Shown: positions 1,661-12,058 of the stretch, piece by piece
Position numbering within the stretch: the stretch's first letter is position 1
How the letters are laid out: every line of letters begins with the position of its first letter
NCBI RefSeq assembly: GCF_028527925.1
Contig: NZ_JAPESW010000017.1
Location: 1-64,000 of the forward strand
Direction: 5' to 3'
Length of the DNA: 64,000 nt
From: Cellulomonas fimi
Lineage (GTDB): Bacteria > Actinomycetota > Actinomycetes > Actinomycetales > Cellulomonadaceae
The notes under the pieces: model-generated
Database searches by the model: none
Seen by the model: the letters and a program-made list of their open reading frames with translations, nothing else
Told to the model about the DNA's origin: nothing
Position numbers and translations under genes: made by a program

Positions 1661-2962
1661 TCAGCTCTTGAGCAGCCCGGGGTCCTCCGGTGCGAGGCTC
1701 TCCAGGATGCGGTTGAGGTCCTGCACGGACGCGAACTCGACGGTCAGCCGCCCGCGCGTCTTGCCGAGCGACACCTTCACTCGGGTCTCGAACCGGTCCG
1801 AGAGCCGCGACGCGAGGTCGTCGAGCGCCGCGTTGCGGTCGCCCGCGCGCGGCGCGGCCCGGCGTGCAGGCTGCGCACCGTCGACGCCCAGCGACACGAT
1901 CTCCTCCACGGCACGGACCGACAGCCCTTCGGCCACGATCCGCTGCGCAAGCCGCTCGATCGCCGCGCCGTCGCTCAGCCCGAGCAGCGCACGCGCGTGT
2001 CCCGCGGACAGGACACCGGCCGCGACACGGCGCTGCACGAGCGGCGGCAGCTTGAGGAGCCGGAGCGTGTTCGAGATCTGTGGCCGCGATCGGTGGATGC
2101 GCGTCGCCAGCTCCTCGTGCGTGCAACCGAAGTCGTCGAGCAGCTGCTGGTAGGCGGCCGCCTCCTCGAGCGGGTTCAGCTGGGCCCGGTGGAGGTTCTC
2201 GAGCAGTGCGTCACGCAGCAGGTCCGAGTCCTCGGTGTCGCGCACGATCGCCGGGATCGTGTCGAGGCCCGCGGCCTGGGTGGCACGCCAGCGACGTTCG
2301 CCCATGATGAGCTCGTAGCCGTCGCCGACCGCGCGGACCACGACCGGCTGCAGCACGCCGATCTCGCGGATCGAGCCGACGAGCTCCTCGAGCGCTTCCT
2401 CGTCGAACACGGTGCGCGGCTGTCGCGGGTTGGGTCGGATCGACGCCACCGCCAGCTCGGCGAACCGCGCGCCCGGGACGGGCAGCAGCCCGTCGGGGTC
2501 GGTGGACGCCCCCGCACCGGTCGCCTCCGACGACGCGCCGTCGAGCGCCGTGCCCACGGGGCCGTCCGTCGCCGAACCGTCGGTCACGGGCGCCTGCGTT
2601 CCCGTGGTCGCCTGCGGCCCGACGCCGTCGACGTGCGGCAGGGTCGTCGCGGCGCTAGGGGCAACGGACGAGCCGTTGGTGCCCGCGACGCCCGCCTCTG
2701 TGTCCGGCGTCTGCGTCGCGACGTCGCTCTCAGCGACCTGGGTGGCGACGGCGGACGCAGCGGCGTCGGTCGCAGCCAACTCCGTCGCGGCCGGGGAGGC
2801 GGCGGCCCCGTTCGAGGCACCCGACCCGTCAGTCCCGTTGTCGCGCTTGGCGTCCGGGAAGAACACGTCGACGGGACGCTCGCCCGAGGATCGCTGGCCG
2901 TCGAGGCCCGTCGGGATCAGGGCACCGAGGCCCCGGCCCAACCCGCGTCGCTTCTCGCTCAC
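1661..2962 (-). CDS. parB: Chromosome-partitioning protein ParB
   Basis: ParB is the CTP-dependent clamp that loads at parS sites and spreads along DNA to segregate the origin. This 433-residue protein opens with the actinobacterial [13 protein letters not shown] motif. A low-complexity Ala/Thr/Ser/Gly-rich linker runs from about residue 25 to 155. The ParB/Srx domain follows, with IRPNPRQPR and the GERRWRA CTPase motif, and then the helix-turn-helix [22 protein letters not shown]-terminal dimerisation region ends at LLKS. The GTG start at 2962 overlaps the parA stop by three bases and has AGGAGG five bases upstream, so translation is probably coupled to parA. The linker is much longer than in typical ParB proteins. 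Nine parS sites lie in the 9 kb upstream. Confidence 0.96.
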
Positions 2963-5166
2963 TGGTCCTCCTGGTGTGCGGCCATCACCGGCTCGCCGTA
3001 GGTCTGCTGGTGCACGGCGGAGTCTGCCTCCGCCGTGCTCTCGTGCTGGTCTGCGTGCGGTCGCGCCTCGGTGGCGTGCGACACCGCGTCCGCGGCCACC
3101 GCCGCCGACGCCACACCGTCCGTCCCGTCCGCGGTCCCGTCGGAGGTCGCTGCTCCTCGCTCGGCGATCTCACGCGCCGCCTCGAGATAGGCCAGCGCAC
3201 CCGACGACCCGGCGTCGTACGTCATGACCGTCTGCCCGTAGCTCGGCGCCTCGGAGATCCGCACCGACCGCGGGACCGTCGTCCGCAACGTGCGGTCGGG
3301 GAAGTGCGTGCGCACCTCCTCGGCCACCTGCTGGGCGAGATTCGTCCGCGCGTCGTACATGGTCAGCAGGATCGTCGACACGTGGAGGTCCGGGTTGAGG
3401 TGCGCCTGGATCAGCTGGATCGACTTCAACAGCTGGCTCAGACCCTCGAGCGCGTAGTACTCGCACTGGATCGGGATGAGCACCTCGCGCGCGACGACGA
3501 ACGCGTTGACGGTGAGAAGTCCCAGGCTCGGCGGGCAGTCGACGAACACGTAGTCGATCGGCTCCAAGCCCTGCGCCGCACGCCACTCGAGGTAGCGGTC
3601 GAGCGCGTTCCGCAGCCGGGTCTCGCGCGCGACCATCGACACGAGCTCGATCTCCGCGCCCGACAGGTCGATCGTCGCGGGCAGGCACCACAGGTTCGGG
3701 ACGTCAGGGCTCTCCTGCACCGCCTCCTCGATCGGCGCACCGTCGACGAGGACCTCATAGATCGACGGAGTCCCCGCCCGGTGGTCGATGCCGAGCGCGG
3801 TCGAGGCGTTGCCCTGCGGGTCGTTGTCCAGCACGAGCACGTTGAGCCCGGCCTGTGCCAGCGCCGCCGCGAGATTCACGGTCGTCGTCGTCTTGCCGAC
3901 GCCGCCCTTCTGGTTCGCCACGGTGATGACGCGCGTCGCGGCGGGCCGCGGGAAGCGGCGCCCACGCAGCTCGATCCTCCGGCGTGCGTCGAGCTGCAGC
4001 TCCGCCATGAGCGGCGTCTCCTCGTCCGCCTGAGGCAGGCTGTTCACGAGAGCGGCTCGGCGGTGCTCATCGGGGTCCGTGTGGAGAGGTCCGGCGTCGC
4101 CGCCGAACGGCTGCGGCGAGTGGTCTGGGTTCACGGGCAGTTCGTCGTCCTCATCGGGCGCCTCGGCGCGGTCGTCGAGACCGCGCGGAGCGCCGGTCTC
4201 GGCTGCCCCGTCGGCTCGATCGTCGCTCGCCGGTCCGGGCGCCACAACAGGCGAGGCAGGGGCGAGCCCGACGTCGGACGTCGCTGCGGACTCGGCCGCA
4301 GCGGGTTCTTCGGGACTGCTGACAGATTCTCCCTCATCCGTCAGGCCACCCGAGACCGCCGAGAGAGTGCCGTCGTCCGTCCGGGCCGTTGCGTCCGTGG
4401 TCGGCAGCTCCGGATCGGTGTCACGGAAGATCCGCACCTCCCCCGTCGCCGTTTCACGTGAAACGGCGACGTCTGCGTCCACGTCTACAGCGGGCCACAC
4501 ATCAGAGGCGTGCTGGGTCCCGCCGTCCTGCGACATCGATCCGCCAGCGTCCGGGCTGACCGGCCACGCACCGGCACCAGCCGGGACGACCTCCGCGTCA
4601 TCCACGTCGGAGGGGGTGCTCGACGCGGTGGTCGAGCCGTCCGGGCCCTCTGTCGACGGCTTGCTCAGTGCGGCCCCTTCGACCGGACCGTCTCCGTCGG
4701 CGTGAACTACTGCCTCCGCCGTCAGCGCATCACCCGGCTCCGTTTCACGTGAAACGCGGCCATCGTCGTTCGCCATCTCCACCATGGGCGTGTGCGGCGC
4801 GTCCGTGACGTGCGAGGCCCCGTACGCGTCGTGCGGCGCGTCGTTGCCCTCGGAGTGCACCCCTGCGGCTGGCGAGGACCAGGCGGTGACGTCCTCCGCG
4901 CCCGATGCTTCACCCGCCCCAGGTGCGTGCGGCGGCACGAATCGCGAATCCTGAGTGCTGGCGGACGACGACGCAGCCATCTGATCGACGGCGGCGACCG
5001 ACGTCGGCGCCGCTGGCGATACGACAGCCCCGTCAGGGGCGGCCGGTAGCCACGTGGGCGTGTCCTCCGTCGACGTTGGCGACGCAGCGGAGAGCGGTGC
5101 GCTCGGCGGCATCAGGCCTGGCTCTGCTGCGACAGGCTCCGCCTTGCGCTTCTTCCTACCGAACAT
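2959..5166 (-). CDS. parA: Chromosome-partitioning ATPase ParA with a very long N-terminal extension
   Basis: ParA is the Walker ATPase that pulls or tethers ParB-parS complexes. The ATPase domain starts near residue 411, with the deviant Walker [15 protein letters not shown] at about 420-433 and [10 protein letters not shown] and [12 protein letters not shown] further on. The predicted product is 735 residues, against roughly 260-330 for typical ParA. The first 410 residues are an acidic Ala/Ser/Thr/Pro/Asp-rich, probably disordered extension beginning MFGRKKRK, and a 70-residue Ala-rich tail follows the ATPase. The ATG at 5166 has GGGAGG upstream and overlaps the end of rsmG by 11 bases. 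An alternative start at 4005 ([11 protein letters not shown]) would give a normal-length ParA. I prefer the long form because the extension composition is not the Arg-rich pattern of a non-coding frame. Two parS sites lie inside the extension, both read as VSRET. Confidence 0.9.
4451..4464. promoter_or_regulatory. parS site 1 (inside parA extension)
   Basis: This is a perfect GTTTCACGTGAAAC ParB-binding palindrome. Flanking bases extend the perfect symmetry to 26 bp (4445-4470). It falls within the coding region for the ParA extension and reads VSRET. Confidence 0.95.
4742..4755. promoter_or_regulatory. parS site 2 (inside parA extension)
   Basis: This is a perfect GTTTCACGTGAAAC palindrome inside the parA reading frame, again translated as VSRET, 291 bp from site 1. 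The spacing is a multiple of three, which keeps the same frame. Confidence 0.95.
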
Positions 5167-5830
5167 TCGCCACCTCCCGTACGACGCGGACGACTCGCGT
5201 GGGCTCGACTCCGTCGATCGTCGACGCCACCACAACTTCGGCAACGCCGGCCCCCCACTTCTTCCCGACGTGCTTGGCGTCCTGCACTTCCTGCTCTGCC
5301 TTCTCTCCCTTGAGGGCGACCAGAACTCCGCCGGCGCGGAGCATCGGGAGCGCCATGCGGTAGAGCTTGTCCAGCGACGCCACCGCACGTGCCGTGACGG
5401 CGTCGGCCATCAGGTGGCCGTGCACGTCCTGCGCTCGGTTCCGCTCCACCACGACGTTGTCGAGGTGCAGCCGCTGGGCGACTTCCGCCAGCCAGTCCGT
5501 GCGGCGCTCCATCGGCTCGAGCAGGACGACCTCGCACTCCGGTCGCATCGCCGCCACGACGATGCCCGGGAGGCCCGCACCGCTCCCCAGGTCGACGATC
5601 CGGCCCGAGGTCGGGAGGAACGGCACGACGGCGGCCGAGTTCAGCAGGTGCCGCGACCACAGCCGCGACACCTCGCGGGGGCCGACAAGACCTCGCAGCA
5701 CACCTTCGTCGACGAGCATCGAGTGGAAGCCGGCCACGGCGGGCCACGCCTCCCCGAAGAACCTGGCCACAGCGGGGTCACCCGTGAGCGGGTCTTCCAC
5801 GCTCGTCACCTCGGGGACATCGCCCGTCAC
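5156..5830 (-). CDS. rsmG: 16S rRNA (guanine(527)-N7)-methyltransferase RsmG
   Basis: RsmG (GidB) methylates N7 of G527 in 16S rRNA using SAM. This 224-residue protein has the SAM-binding motif IVDLGSGAGLPGIVVA, the downstream VLLEPMERR acidic loop and LVALKGEKA in the C-terminal half, all typical of the family. The GTG at 5830 is chosen because GGGGGA lies just upstream and it gives the usual family length. The frame stays open far upstream but becomes Arg-rich and unconserved. A parS site (5841-5854) lies 10 bp before the start codon. The gene is the first of the rsmG-parA-parB operon and overlaps parA by 11 bases. Confidence 0.93.
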   Translation of the reverse strand: MTGDVPEVTSVEDPLTGDPAVARFFGEAWPAVAGFHSMLVDEGVLRGLVGPREVSRLWSRHLLNSAAVVPFLPTSGRIVDLGSGAGLPGIVVAAMRPECEVVLLEPMERRTDWLAEVAQRLHLDNVVVERNRAQDVHGHLMADAVTARAVASLDKLYRMALPMLRAGGVLVALKGEKAEQEVQDAKHVGKKWGAGVAEVVVASTIDGVEPTRVVRVVREVANVR

Positions 5831-5840
5831 TACGTCCCCC

Positions 5841-5854
5841 GTTTCACGTGAAAC
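5841..5854. promoter_or_regulatory. parS site 3 (upstream of rsmG)
   Basis: This perfect GTTTCACGTGAAAC lies 10 bp upstream of the rsmG start. ParB binding here could overlap the leader or promoter of the rsmG-parA-parB operon. Confidence 0.95.
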
Positions 5855-6184
5855 CAAGCCTTGGCTCCATCTACAGCCGCCTCGTGCGCCCGCCCGGAAA
5901 CTGCCTTCGCGTCGTCTAGGGGGCGGGCGACGCCCCACCGTATCGCGCGGCTCGCCGCCTCCCGAGGCCATCCACAGGCGGGTCGTCGGCGGTTCCCCGA
6001 CATCCCGGCGACACGCCGACAGCCACCGCGACAAGAACGATGGCGCGCCGACCACCACCACCGCGAGCAGCCGCCGCCCAAAGGTCCCAGCCGACGACCT
6101 GACCACCTCCACTCTGCGCATCCCTCACGCGCCAGCTCCCCGCAACACGTCGACGCCCACCGCGAACGGCCCCTCACGCGGGAC

Positions 6185-6374
6185 GTCACGCGACGACCCG
6201 ACCATGTCCACCCGGCACAACCGGACCACCCGCAAGCTCCCCGCCAACACGTCAACGCCCACCACTCCGAGCTGCCGCTCACGCACGGCGTCACGCGACG
6301 ACCCGACCATGACCACCCGGCACAACCGGACCACCCGCAAGCTCCCCGCCAACACGTCAACGCCCACCACTGCG
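6185..6374. repeat. 105-bp tandem repeat, about two full copies plus a degenerate third
   Basis: Copy one begins at 6185 and copy two at 6290. They are nearly identical over the first 80 or so bases, differing for example at one base in CCATGTCCACC versus CCATGACCACC. A diverged partial copy (CAGCTCCCCGC...ACACGTCGACGCCCACC) precedes them from about 6131. The period is a multiple of three, but the repeats stay open in several frames, so they do not show coding. Confidence 0.85.
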
Positions 6375-7707
6375 AGCGGCGGCGTACCCGCGACGTCATG
6401 GCCGACGGCCAGACATCCACCGCTACTCACAGCTCGCGCGCGAGGTCCGGAGTCACGTCGACGGCCACCACTCGGGCGCGTGCTCGCACTCACCGAGACA
6501 CCAGCCTTGGCTGGCACGACGGACCGGCCAGCGCGCTCGCGTCGCGGATAACGGCGCCCACGAGCGTGGAAGCCAGCCGATGTCGCGCCGTCTGTCCCTC
6601 GACCGCACCTCGCGGCGCCACCATCCGGAGACCCGCGCTACGGCACGAGCGGCGTCCACCGTTTGATCGGCCCGTGTGCGCGTGCCGCCCTCGCGGTCGG
6701 CACGCGATACGCAGCCTGACCGCCGTCCCCTGAGGTGACGTCGGAAGCAGGCCAAGGCACCGCGCTGAGGTGCGGCGGCCACGATCGACCCTTTCTCGTA
6801 CAGACCGGAGGGCGCGGACGGAGGGCTCGCCCGACCTCTTCGCACCCGCCGGCCAAGCCCGGTCTGTTGTCAGGCTCGTGAACGACTCCCGGTGCCACCC
6901 CTTAGAACGCTCGCTCGTTCGCCGGACACCAGACGCGTCGCTCAAGGTCAGTGGCCTGCCTGTCGCTGTCGTCGAGAACAGACGCCGCCCGCGGCGACGC
7001 CTGCGGTCCGTCCCGGCAGCTCTACTTGTCCCACGTCGCGGACTCGACCGCCGAAGATCGAGCCGATCGTCGCGTCGCGAAGCGTCGCCCGCACCGGGAC
7101 ACGCGCCGCCCGTGCGCTCGTCCGCTCGGCCAAGATCCATCTCGCTCTACTGGAGAGTGCGACATGGGTCTACAAGCACCCGCACCCGAACCCGGACGGG
7201 CGGCAACTAGGTGGCCGCTCGGCACGTGCTCCACCTGGGAGCGAACGGCATCACCCTGGCGACACAGCCGAAGGCGGGCGATCGGTCAACGACTGGCCGA
7301 GCGAGCGCAGATTGCGCTGACCACGCGGAGGGCATGCCGTGACATCGCGCCGAACCGACACGCGTCCACGCCTAGCTGGGTCCCGCGCCCCCGGCTCCGG
7401 CGGTTTCGAGCATCGCCCGCTGGTTGTCTGGGACGCTACCTGGCGCGTCTCGGTTCGGTCGCTCCTCCTAGTGGCCGGCGAGCCCTGGTGATCCGGCCGG
7501 CCGAGGTCGCTGGTTGTTGGCGATCGCGACACCACGCCTACGCGCGTGCGCCATCCTCCACGCGCCTCGTCGTAGTGTCACCGCGAACGATGATTCGCTC
7601 GTCTGGCCATGACGGTGGTCGCCGCGTCCGGCGCGTTGACGCACACCCCCATCGCCGTATGGGTCCAGATTCTCGCTCTCCGGCCACAACGGTCCTCGCC
7701 GGGTTGT

Positions 7708-7721
7708 GTTTCACGTGGAAC
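7708..7721. promoter_or_regulatory. parS site 4 (one mismatch)
   Basis: GTTTCACGTGGAAC differs from the consensus at one position in the right arm. It is preceded by T, as in the 16-bp consensus. Confidence 0.8.
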
Positions 7722-7890
7722 GACAGCATGAGGCACGGTCCACCAACCTCGTTGCGGACTCCGCGCCACGAGTCCGCGTTCGCGACCGGCCGAGCCCCAT
7801 CTGCGAGGTGGGTCCCCCTCGCTCGCCTACGGCCCGACCCGACCGCCCTCCCTGTCTCACGCGCGAGGCTCATCTTTCCCCCGCCAGTGT

Positions 7891-7904
7891 GTTTCACGTG
7901 AAAC
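7891..7904. promoter_or_regulatory. parS site 5
   Basis: This is a perfect GTTTCACGTGAAAC. With flanking T and A it matches the full 16-bp consensus TGTTTCACGTGAAACA. It lies 183 bp from site 4. Confidence 0.96.
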
Positions 7905-8229
7905 AACGGTCCGCCGCACCCGCCGCGTGCGGGTGCGCGGCCGGGAGCGCACAGCGGATTCGCAGTTGCAGCACCATCCCGGAGGCTACGTGCGCGCCGA
8001 GGAACTGCCCCTGGTCTCCCCTTGGGGGCGCGGCTGGGCTCTCGCACCCCCGGTTCACGTGACAGTCAGGCGCGCCGCGCACCTTCTGCGACCACAAGTG
8101 AACGCCGCAGCGACGACACGCGCATGGGGAGCGGCTGAACTACACGTCTTGCAGGCAAGGTGCCGCTCGCCTTCTCTCGCCTCAGTGAGCCGCAGGCCCC
8201 CACGCAGGGCTCCGCTGTCTCGGCCCGCC

Positions 8230-8243
8230 GTTTCACGTGAAAC
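8230..8243. promoter_or_regulatory. parS site 6
   Basis: This is a perfect GTTTCACGTGAAAC flanked by CGCC and GGCG, which extends the palindrome to 22 bp. Confidence 0.95.
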
Positions 8244-8849
8244 GGCGCCTGGCGCCAACACTCTCGGCTTGCTGATGGTTCTTTGCGGCGGGGGCTCGCC
8301 AGTGCACGGTCGAGACGCCCGCACTCGACTGGTCCCAGCCACCCTCTCCAGTGCCAGCCGATCCACCAGGCTCCATCACGACAGGCCCGGGTACTGAGCC
8401 CAAGCCCACTCGGTCACACGAATCGCCTCGCACCGGAATCACTTCAAGACACACGGAGGGGAATGCACAGCAGGGCCGCGCTAGAGACCGCCGGTCCGGG
8501 CGGACAGATCCCGCCAGTCGCCGCTTGGCGACTCCCGGCCGCGACCCGCCGACCGGCCTCAGATCAGGCGTCGTGTGCCGGACGACTCCCCCGTGGCGTG
8601 ACGAGATGGGGCGTGGCAGACAGCTGTCGTCACCCCCGGCTGCGAGAGCGGAGCGAGGCGGCGCCAGCGGCCAGTCAGCCGCACGAGGTCCGGCGGGTCT
8701 AGGCACCTTCCTGCCTCCCCGCCTCAGGCCCACCCACCGCCCCGCAACAATCCAAGCCCTTCCCCGGAGAAGGGCGATGACCTCCCGCGTGACGCGCCGC
8801 CGTCGCACGCGCACGCTCGTGGCATCGACCGCGCGCGCCCACCCCCGCC

Positions 8850-8863
8850 GTTTCACGTGAAAC
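8850..8863. promoter_or_regulatory. parS site 7
   Basis: This is a perfect GTTTCACGTGAAAC in the gene-free region. Confidence 0.95.
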
Positions 8864-10589
8864 CACGGCGTCCGTGCCCTCTGCGTCACCACATCACCGG
8901 ACCCGAAGCCAGGTCGCCGGCGAACGCCCCGCGAATCCGCCAGCGAGTGCAGGTATCGCCGCGGTCGCCATACGGCCTGCTGGAACGACGTTCGACGACC
9001 GCCCTTCCTCGCACCCTCCCGAGGCAGCGTCGAGCGTCGAAGTGTCCCTTCGCTATCGGCGAGAGCAGTGAGCGACCTTGCCAAGTCGCGAGCACAGCCG
9101 CGAAGGTCGCTTGATGGACCCTCTAGTGCTCCTGGCACACGGGTACGCGTGTGCACGTGGAGGGCGAGGGCACGGAGGGGGAAGGGCACGCTCCCTCCCA
9201 CCCGACGCGGGCGCCCGGCCCTGTCGACTGGTAGCTCCTCCAGCTCACCCTCGCGACCTGAGAGGACCACGGTCAGCACATCGCCGCGGCCGCAGCGTGG
9301 ATCTAGCCGTCCGGGCCGACCCTGCGTCGTCTTCCATCTACTCCGAGTTGCACGCGCGCGCGCCGCCGTGCCGGCAGGGCCCGCAGACGGACGCGTGCTG
9401 ACGCTCGCACCCGCGCGACGCCTGGGTTGGCGAGACGCGAACTGGCCGACGGGTACGCCCCAGCGTCGTATGACCTAAGGGCGAACCCTCGGTGGCCTGG
9501 GACGACATGCCGCGCTGGTCGCGGCCGGCGCCGACGCGTGGGCGCTCGCCCCGACGCGCCCAGTAGGACTTCCGAGGGTCTGGGCGGGAGGCGCGGAGAG
9601 GTGCGTCGAAGCGCTGCCTCGACGCGACAGGGGAACCGCTCCTCGTCTGTAGATCACGACGTGTGGTACACCGAACCACATGTTGTTCTGGCCGTGCCGC
9701 CGCGGTGCAGGAGCAGTCGAGCAACCGCTGAGCGGATGGCGCGCCTGACGTGCTGGCTACGCCTGGCCGGTCCTCGTCCCGCCGAGTGCCCGACCTCGCA
9801 CAACTCGCATGGTCGCCTCGCTACCCTCGCTCGCCCCGCATGCCACCTCTGCCCCGCATGCCTCGCCCCCCGCACGCCTGGACGCCTCGCACGCGCGGGC
9901 CGTCACAGAGAAGTGATCCGTCGAGATGACAGGAGCTTGGTCCGCGCCGGTCGCAAGTCCCGGAGGGTGAAGTCTCGATAGCGAGGCGACCCCTCCTGGC
10001 CGGGAGCCAGCTCGTCGGAGTCTGGACGCGACGCCGCCGCCTCGCGCCGTCGACGGGCGCAGCCGTGACGAGCAGAATCACGCCACCCGGTGGCCTGGTC
10101 CACATCACGTTCGATCCAGGGCTCCTCGCGACAGCACGTTCGCGGCGGTGGGGCCCGGCGCTGTGTGCCGAGCCAGTGGGTCTCTGAACCCACCCGCACC
10201 CGAACTGCGGGCGCGATTCCGGGCCGCTTCGCACATCGTCGAGCACAACCTTCGCGCCTTGTGCAGGTTCGCCGAGCAGCGATGAGAGCGATCCGCTCGA
10301 ACGCCGCACGAGGGCGCTCTTCGGCCATCTGAGGCCCCGTATGCCCTGTTTTCACGGCACTGCCCTCGAGCGTCGCCCATCTCCGAGGGTGACGCCACGA
10401 GTACGCTCGACTTCGAACTCGACGCGCGGCGTTCCCTTCTGTTCGTCCAGACGACGTCCTCCCGAGGAAAGTGCGTCGATCGGCACGCGGTCTGACAAAC
10501 CGAGGGCCGCCGACCTCTCCCGCATGGATGCACACTGCCGTCGAGTCCGACCGACCGGGTGCAAGTCCACGGTGGCTCACCCCAGCGCC

Positions 10590-10603
10590 GTTTCACGTGA
10601 AAC
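10590..10603. promoter_or_regulatory. parS site 8
   Basis: This is a perfect GTTTCACGTGAAAC in the gene-free region, paired with site 9 at 247 bp. Confidence 0.95.
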
Positions 10604-10836
10604 GCCGCAGGGCCGCTGGAGTCGACCGGCACCACCAGGTCTACCCGCCCTCGTCCTTGACATCGGCTCGACCTCGGCCGTGAGGCGGCGCCGCCCCCCA
10701 CGCAGGTCACGGGCGCGCCATGCACGGACGGTGCGCTCCAGCGGAACGCCACCACCACCTACGTCCGTATACCGCGCGACGCGGGTCCACCCTGCTGCTG
10801 GCGGACCACCGGAGTCCCATCGCGAAGAAGCGCGAT

Positions 10837-10850
10837 GTTTCACGTGAAAC
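10837..10850. promoter_or_regulatory. parS site 9
   Basis: This is a perfect GTTTCACGTGAAAC. It directly abuts a separate small inverted repeat (ATCGCG, six-base spacer, CGCGAT; 10819-10836). Confidence 0.95.
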
Positions 10851-11251
10851 TCATCCGACGAATAACAGCACTGGCGATGCACGTCGCTGCGTAGCGGGAC
10901 TTGGCCGAAGGTGGGCACGTGGGATGCGAATACGCGCCACTGCGCGATCTCGACGGCTGACGCCCATGTTCGACATCGGGCTCTGAGGGTGCTGCGCGGG
11001 GGACGTCGGGTCGACGAATTGTGGACGCCGGACCCGTCGGGGGCCCAGACGCCGCGAGGTAGATGGCGCTACTCATCCGGGCAGAGCTCGGGGAGGGAGC
11101 CTCACTCGCGTGTACTTCCCGCCGCCCGGTTCGGCGTCTCCCTCCTCCGGACCACGCTGGGGCCTACCCGCTGATCTTCTCCGGTCCACGCCTCTACCGC
11201 GCCACTCGTCTGCTCGGGACCGCTTCACGACTCGGCGCCGCTCGCCGCGAG

Positions 11252-11345
11252 CACACATCGCCACCTCGGCGCCGCTACCCGCCGGCACACACCGTCACCT
11301 CGGCGCCGCTCCCGCCGGCACACACCGCGATCTCGGCGCTGCACT
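11252..11345. repeat. 33-bp tandem repeats, about three copies
   Basis: Copies start at 11252, 11286 and 11319. They share CACACACCG followed by a CTCGGCGC core and CCCGCCGG. A partial copy of the CTCGGCGCCGCTC core lies at 11231. The repeats lie between the last parS site and the jag terminator. Confidence 0.75.
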
Positions 11346-11493
11346 GCTCTGGTCAAGGTCGCCCGCGCGCCACTGCGCGGCGTCCATCGCATTCGGCAGG
11401 CTCGGCACTGCTGACACGGCTCGCATTCGTCCACGGCGTCGCCGGAACCCCTGCGCGGTTCAGGAAGCGCCGTGGACTCGCGCCTCAGACGAC

Positions 11494-11529
11494 GAGAGGG
11501 CGGGACGACCGATGTCGTCCCGCCCTCTC
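11494..11529 (-). terminator. Strong hairpin terminator downstream of jag
   Basis: The perfect 16-bp arms (11494-11509 and 11514-11529; left arm GAGAGGGCGGGACGAC) surround a CGAT loop. It lies 17 bases past the jag stop codon and ends the rpmH-jag operon, so transcripts should not run into the gene-free region. Confidence 0.9.
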
Positions 11530-11545
11530 ATGGGCATCCGCTGGC

Positions 11546-12058
11546 TCAGGCCGGGCGGATCACCACGTGGCGATCGGGCTCCACGCCCTCCGAGTCGCTG
11601 GACAGACCCGCCGCGGCGACGGCGTCGTGGACGACCTTGCGTTCGAACGGGTTCATCGCCGTGAGCGACACCGGTGCGCCGGACTGCTTCACGCGTCCGA
11701 TGGCGTCCTCGGCAACGGCGACGAGCTCGGCACGACGGGCCGCTCGGAAGCCGGCGACGTCGAGCATCAGGCGGCTCCGCTCGCCGGTCCGCGTCTGCAC
11801 AGCCAGCCGCGTGAGCTCCTGCAGGGCGTCGAGCACCTCACCGTCGCGCCCGGCGAGCCGCCGCAGCGACCGGTCCTCGGGGTCCTCGGAGACGATCTCG
11901 ACGGCCGCGCGGCCGTGGTCGATGTCGATGTCGATGTCGCCGTCGAGGTCGGCGATGTCGAGCAGCTCCTCGAGGTAGTCCGCGGCGATCTCGCCCTCTT
12001 CCTCGAGGCGCTTGGTGCTGGTGGACTCGACCGCTTCGTCGGGCGAGCTCGGGCTCAT
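11546..12058 (-). CDS. jag: Jag/KhpB-like RNA-binding protein (KH-R3H)
   Basis: This 170-residue protein has the KH-type segment around GRDGEVLDALQELTRLA and the R3H motif MNPFERKVVHDAVAA near its C-terminus. That is the Jag (SpoIIIJ-associated, KhpB) architecture. The acidic N-terminus includes LEELLDIADLDGDIDIDID. Family members bind RNA and affect cell division and envelope growth. The gene follows yidC, the conserved partner arrangement. The ATG at 12058 is the start that keeps the N-terminus intact; a much longer open frame upstream is antisense-like and lies under yidC. Confidence 0.92.
   Translation of the reverse strand: MSPSSPDEAVESTSTKRLEEEGEIAADYLEELLDIADLDGDIDIDIDHGRAAVEIVSEDPEDRSLRRLAGRDGEVLDALQELTRLAVQTRTGERSRLMLDVAGFRAARRAELVAVAEDAIGRVKQSGAPVSLTAMNPFERKVVHDAVAAAGLSSDSEGVEPDRHVVIRPA

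Follow-up and report, generated by a model that had tools for sequence, protein, structure and literature searches.

A long, gene-free gap rich in parS sites between rsmG and jag as a probable centromere platform on the Cellulomonas chromosome

Chromosomal clusters of parS, the site at which ParB loads as a CTP clamp before sliding away (PMC12511625; PMC9242446), have been described in several forms. In Myxococcus xanthus, 22 parS sites are found in about 3 kb, around 4 kb upstream of parA and 35 kb from oriC, where they form sequence repeats with the consensus TGTTCCACGTGGAACG at about one site per 140 bp (PMC3899335). Corynebacterium glutamicum carries ten parS sites in 35 kb, nine of which are intergenic, at 73 kb from oriC, and the recruitment of both ParB and SMC has been demonstrated in this organism (PMC7083940). 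Streptomyces chromosomes have a mean of 22.8 sites, with a mean spacing of 5602 bp in the origin island (PMC8743542). Here, we describe a locus from Cellulomonas fimi (contig NZ_JAPESW010000017.1, positions 1 to 64,000; this whole stretch of 64,000 nucleotides is referred to as the window), in which the rsmG and jag genes are separated by a gap of several kilobases that bears parS sites and lacks recognisable genes. Gene-free stretches of kilobases in length are seldom retained in bacterial genomes and, among the matches listed in a search of the open-licence literature, no title dealt with a gene-free jag–rsmG gap bearing parS or with parS in Cellulomonas.

The gap appears to be the main part of the ParABS centromere of this chromosome and a platform for ParB loading, a reading to which we assign a probability of about 0.68. 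The window was scanned with a 16-bp palindrome that we take to be the parS motif. Nine sites were found, all between positions 4450 and 10851, with zero to two mismatches to the 16-mer and all fitting GTTYCACGTGRAAC, against a mean of 0.05 over shuffled sequences at up to three mismatches. Six of these sites lie wholly inside the gene-free DNA, one is located at the start of rsmG and two are in parA. The initial annotation had placed seven of nine sites in the gene-free segment; the total of nine stands, whereas the seven is reduced to six, since the site at 5841-5854, at the gap edge, is best read as codons 2–6 of rsmG (VSRET, as read by eye), following a TTG start codon at 5857-5855 on the minus strand that is preceded by GGAG. 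The spacing between sites, calculated from their positions, ranges from 183 to 1867 bp, with several sites close together.

At the level of the 4.4-Mb assembly, exact GTTTCACGTGAAAC sites number eight, all of them within 6.4 kb at the jag–rsmG locus, which also holds nine of the 12 sites of GTTYCACGTGRAAC form. Six other genomes were searched for GTTYCACGTGRAAC, and in five of them 6–10 of their 8–12 sites are found at this locus; the sixth genome (G043) has no site of this form, but four one-mismatch sites in its gap. The cluster is near oriC, with DnaA boxes near 14.7 kb, and next to it are encoded a ParA ATPase and a ParB with its N-terminal, HTH and C-terminal domains. The motif is the ordinary one of a chromosomal ParABS centromere, and it is the housing of the sites that is unusual. 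The proposal in the initial annotation of a dedicated, parS-rich and gene-free segment near oriC is supported, and a long gap is not limited to the window, as described below.

With regard to the absence of genes, the signal of GC content by codon phase is missing over 6181-11700 (about 5.5 kb at a cut-off of 0.22); the next longest run of this kind on the 83-kb contig measures 1.17 kb. In a control consisting of 20 stretches of 20 kb (400 kb) from a closed genome of the genus (G008), the longest run without signal was 0.99 kb, and the jag–rsmG locus of that same genome has a run of 4.4 kb. Across 49 loci of the genus, the phase range exceeded 0.30 in 90% of 196 scanning windows placed in coding DNA versus 2.3% of the 785 placed in gaps, and in none of the 785 gap windows after shuffling.

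The length of the gap was compared across taxa, with lengths taken as distances between matched protein stretches and thus subject to an error of some tens of bases. Sixty genomes of the genus were searched for jag and rsmG, and 49, including the window, could be measured on one contig; in the remaining 11 (G001, G004, G007, G013, G026, G029, G042, G048, G051, G053 and G054), one of the genes was not found or the two were on different contigs. The gap is longer than 1 kb in 43 of the 49 (median 2.86 kb, range 85 bp to 5.7 kb). In the sample of the order, both genes were present in 118 of 119 genomes and 117 entered the comparison, with our own genome counted apart. Among the 109 of these that fall outside the family, the spacing has a median of 56 bp and a maximum of 618 bp, which bears out the earlier view that jag and rsmG are normally close and that a segment has been inserted between them. 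Two of the seven genomes of the family outside the genus have long gaps, of about 2.6 kb (L063) and 2.0 kb (L064), with five and three sites, respectively, in or at the gap. In the class sample, both domains were found in 57 of 59 genomes, our own included, and three of the 56 others have gaps above 1 kb, all in one family (f32). In these three loci (L112, L113 and L114), the 2.8–5.2 kb between the rsmG and jag domains have much coding periodicity and no parS inside, for which reason they are read as gene insertions and not as the same phenomenon.

The 49 genus members group together as a single clade in a tree built from 69 rows (support 100/99). Gaps below 1 kb occur inside this clade in six genomes belonging to four lineages, and the long and short states require seven changes over the 69 rows at the 1-kb cut; outgroup branches in this tree are long, no single branch separates the chosen outgroup from the rest, and of the 66 inner branches 10 are open. 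Given the single clade, the 43 long gaps out of 49 and the distribution of the short ones over four lineages, the long gap is probably ancestral to the genus. In one of the genomes that could not be measured (G013), the assembly breaks inside the gap, and the ends of the two contigs (C168 and C201; loci L059 and L083) sum to about 8.1 kb unless they overlap, so the full length may be greater than 8 kb. About 80 bp at the inner end of C168 are repeated on C201, about 1 kb upstream of rsmG, and also in C. algicola.

The comparison of parS content across the genus, which the initial annotation had proposed as a check alongside that of gap length, gave 223 sites with at most one mismatch to GTTTCACGTGAAAC over the 141 kb of gap DNA in the 49 loci (1.58/kb, rsmG starts included) and 105 in 268 kb of flanks (0.39/kb), a fourfold lower density. 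When two mismatches are allowed, the sites in the gaps are for the most part GTTTCACGTGAAAC (103), GTTCCACGTGAAAC (65), GTTTCACGTGGAAC (45) and GTTCCACGTGGAAC (22). Sites with at most one mismatch are absent from two gaps, L027 and L034, which have six and four sites, respectively, at two mismatches, and the set includes four GTTTCCCGTGAAAC sites, probably those of the G043 locus (L035); these three loci show signs of lineage-specific shifts of the putative motif. The number of sites grows with gap length (Spearman rho 0.74), and their spacing, with a median of 444 bp over 177 spacings in genus loci, is somewhat more even than random (coefficient of variation 0.69 versus 0.80, standard deviation 0.04). 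Helical phasing at 10.4–11 bp was also considered, and the vector strength of 0.09–0.14 over 96 spacings was not taken as a signal.

Apart from these sites, the gaps have little in common. Of 103 strand-matched gap–gap DNA alignments at E 1e-6, 49 are at the rsmG end, 45 at the jag end and nine in the middle, three of the latter corresponding to one segment common to L043, L044 and L049. In aligned stretches of at least 120 columns that contain a site, parS columns are 98.1% identical (604/616) compared with 83.6% for the others (7842/9376), and the deleted columns number none in parS and 200 elsewhere; these figures come from 40 alignments and 38 ordered pairs, each pair possibly being counted both ways. 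Furthermore, when parS sites were masked and 150 bp were trimmed from each end, parS-like words were still the most over-represented 8- to 10-mers common to 43 gaps, with 42 half-sites against 15.8 expected. Words resembling parS are the clearest sequence shared by the gaps.

As for the mechanism, ParB would load on the gene-free platform at six or seven parS sites, which are some 0.2 to 1.9 kb apart, and slide off them as clamps, building a partition complex that ParA would segregate and that would recruit SMC. The presence of many sites in a short stretch would make for a dense complex adjoining oriC. Loading, sliding, condensation and SMC recruitment are carried over from known ParB biochemistry, and ParB binding in the gap, and with it the centromere function, is likewise inferred. 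The platform would be old and would have been kept long and mostly gene-free in most species, with selection acting mainly on the presence of several spaced parS sites and not on other sequence; that gene-freeness or length is itself under selection seems less certain. A more specific proposal, which we hold tentatively and at somewhat under even odds, is that of a regional centromere, in which selection maintains the position, the length and the load of ParB sites across the genus while most of the sequence beneath them turns over freely. By analogy with eukaryotic regional centromeres, stray genes and repeats may then enter and be lost, an extension that is put forward with the same reserve.

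Several observations weigh against the centromere reading. The long gap is dispensable, because six genomes of the genus, in four lineages, have gaps of 85–599 bp and still carry 3–7 parS sites in the fetched locus. One or two sites are found in or at the gap in eight of 18 short-gap loci (L065–L082), and two genomes of the class with gaps of about 0.5–0.7 kb (L116 and L118) hold two parS each. The presence of parS at this spot is therefore not peculiar, the oddity being the length of the gap and the number of sites; parS sites common at this spot may have seeded the platform. Nor are the gaps always free of genes, since stray genes matching a Pfam family are present in at least five of the 49 (seven if L044 and L049, which align to L043, are added). 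These genes are uridine-kinase-like (L011) or encode a DUF6881 (L018), 2'-5' RNA ligase (L043), NUDIX (L045) or TPR (L053) protein. Five is a lower bound, as the search covered eight loci, namely those in which the phase signal was strong or a segment in mid-gap was shared; out of seven open reading frames (ORFs) from these loci searched against Pfam, two had no match. As a trait of the genus, the gene-free dedicated segment thus holds for the window and is not absolute elsewhere. Moreover, the parS conservation figures were obtained on stretches picked by a local aligner, and a comparison of the window with its 87%-identical relatives shows four-fold sites to be close to saturation (identity 0.49–0.54). 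For this reason, the lost alignability of the window with C. septica and C. algicola is uninformative, and an argument for rapid evolution based on the pair of the window and C. septica was dropped.

In addition, keeping RNA polymerase away is an obvious idea for the gene-freeness, and it is weakened by in vitro work in which transcription and ParB condensation left each other undisturbed (PMC10681803). We prefer the simpler reading that several spaced parS sites need DNA free of other constraints, which fits with the location of the sites outside the gap. In the genus loci, 114 sites are found from the rsmG start onward, and 92 of them are in the open frame of the ParA N-terminal extension, at least 62 being encoded as V(S/P)RET codons; the other 22 comprise 12 at the start of rsmG, nine in the interval from rsmG to parA and one in rsmG, and the fetched stretches show none in or past the ParA core. 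Ahead of that core, the open frame has a median of 354 codons in these loci (range 50–542). In the window, the extension ahead of the ATPase domain spans about 410 residues.

The alternative that survives best is a permissive, neutrally drifting zone, in which the operon was split once and foreign genes and tandem repeats have kept entering and decaying since; we regard it as unlikely, though not negligible. In this reading, the parS sites would be functional and would accumulate only because the DNA is unconstrained near oriC and parAB, with length and gene-freeness as by-products. The stray genes and the short gaps of four genus lineages are in line with such a zone, and the long ParA N-terminal extension, the other parS-rich place, may also be weakly constrained. 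Tandem repeats account for 6.7% of gap bases and 2.0% of flank bases, occurring in 36 of 48 gaps, yet also in 30 of 48 flanks (the gap of 85 bp did not enter this count). Between C. septica and C. algicola, identity in the gap upstream of rsmG is 0.83–0.89 over the initial 200 bp and drops to 0.62 by 1.1 kb, with insertions and deletions, whereas that at four-fold sites in rsmG and parA is 0.87–0.91; the gap would accordingly seem to diverge faster than synonymous sites in this pair, although those sites are GC-rich and may be constrained. Drift alone does not readily explain why no comparable gene-free DNA is present elsewhere on the 83-kb contig or in the 400-kb control, yet the gap exceeds 1 kb in 43 of the 49 genomes. 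If deletions outnumber insertions, purely neutral DNA would be expected to have become short in more of the species. The growth of site number with length and the spacing that is more even than random also speak against a permissive zone.

It is very unlikely that the segment is occupied by undetected small genes or by a non-coding RNA. A local 3-periodic signal at about 6100-6400 would favour this option, and it coincides with a tandem repeat of 105 bp, a multiple of three (35 codons). Pfam gave no match at E 0.1 for 19 ORFs in or across the gap, a selection of those present, and none at E 0.01 for two ORFs over the 105-bp repeat; one ORF running through rsmG matched GidB and, more weakly, methyltransferase families. 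Likewise, there was no PHROG match at E 0.01 for ten gap ORFs, including one over the repeat, and a search for tRNAs found none in the gap. A hidden RNA was rejected, given that Rfam returned nothing over the gap at gathering scores. In a tblastn search with low-complexity filter against 0.99 Mb of other genomes, none of 91 stop-to-stop ORFs of at least 35 codons had a match at E 0.001, whereas many were obtained with the coding ORFs nearby; with the filter off, nine matches appeared, in C. septica and C. algicola only, all just upstream of rsmG where the DNA also aligns. The concentration of gap–gap alignments at the two ends (94 of 103) likewise argues against conserved genes within. Together with the codon-phase run, these results bear out the gene-free segment for the window, and the conserved proteins that might have overturned it were not found by Pfam, PHROG or filtered tblastn.

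A replication origin or a decayed mobile element in the segment is highly improbable in spite of the repeats and of the distance of about 3 kb to dnaA, since exact TTGTCCACA boxes are located around dnaA (14676, 14688 and 16313), 5855-11545 contains no exact TTGTCCACA or TTATCCACA DnaA box and only a one-mismatch box at 10096, blastn of 5611 gap bases against 72,556 plasmid and 50,697 phage records gave no match at E 1e-5, none of the ten ORFs had a PHROG match, and a duplication within the genome was rejected because the gap has no second long copy, only 36- and 26-base matches on another contig. The comparison made initially with a plasmid-like centromere is not supported, as the motif is the ordinary chromosomal one, the rsmG/jag neighbourhood and the gene order are the usual ones of a chromosome, and no plasmid or phage match was found at the sensitivity used.

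The features of the locus are collected in Table 1. The genes are all on the minus strand in the order parB, parA, rsmG, gap, jag and yidC, with start codons inferred from the sequence. A hairpin downstream of jag, with perfect 16-bp arms and a z of -6.5, may end jag transcription. It had been presented as a strong terminator; the hairpin is confirmed, and its strength as a terminator is plausible only, as no T-run follows it and a T-run-based terminator scan did not list it.

Table 1. Coordinates of the parS-bearing gap and of neighbouring features in the window.
Feature	Position	Strand	Basis or remark
Gene-free, parS-bearing gap between rsmG and jag	5858..11545	.	codon-phase, family-match and protein-conservation searches
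parS	4450..4465	+	within ParA N-terminal extension
parS	4741..4756	+	within ParA N-terminal extension
parS	5840..5855	+	overlaps rsmG codons 2-6, at gap edge
parS variant GTTTCACGTGGAAC	7707..7722	+	
parS, perfect 16-mer	7890..7905	+	
parS	8229..8244	+	
parS	8849..8864	+	
parS	10589..10604	+	
parS	10836..10851	+	
105-bp tandem repeat, 2.6 copies	6126..6398	.	
34-bp tandem repeat, 3.2 copies	11231..11339	.	
Hairpin, candidate terminator without T-run	11494..11529	-	16 bp past jag stop codon
parB	1661..2962	-	ParB_N, HTH_ParB, ParB_C domains
parA, 735 aa	2959..5166	-	Pfam AAA_31 at residues 411-595; start codon inferred
rsmG (GidB)	5156..5857	-	Pfam PF02527 1.3e-41; start codon inferred
jag (R3H/KhpB-like)	11546..12058	-	domain match; start codon inferred; stop codon 11546-11548

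A genus with gene-free DNA where its ParB sites are gathered provides a natural experiment on the requirements of a partition complex, be they the number of parS sites, their spacing, bare DNA along which clamps can slide or simply sequence free of constraint, and the four short-gap lineages of the genus and the short-gap sister genera are ready-made controls. Among the described systems compared, the cluster of Myxococcus xanthus is the nearest in form, being likewise a dense chromosomal group of parS sites a few kilobases from parA (PMC3899335). It differs in that its many sites make up a repeat array upstream of parA, whereas here about one site per 0.8 kb is found, without such an array, between rsmG and jag. 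As in Corynebacterium glutamicum, this is an actinobacterial centromere of multiple parS sites that are mostly outside genes, although the sites spread there over 35 kb are here collected in one expanded gap. The Streptomyces chromosome also shares the location of parS near oriC and parAB; however, its sites are scattered over about 50 kb (PMC8743542), in contrast to the median spacing of less than half a kilobase in the Cellulomonas loci.

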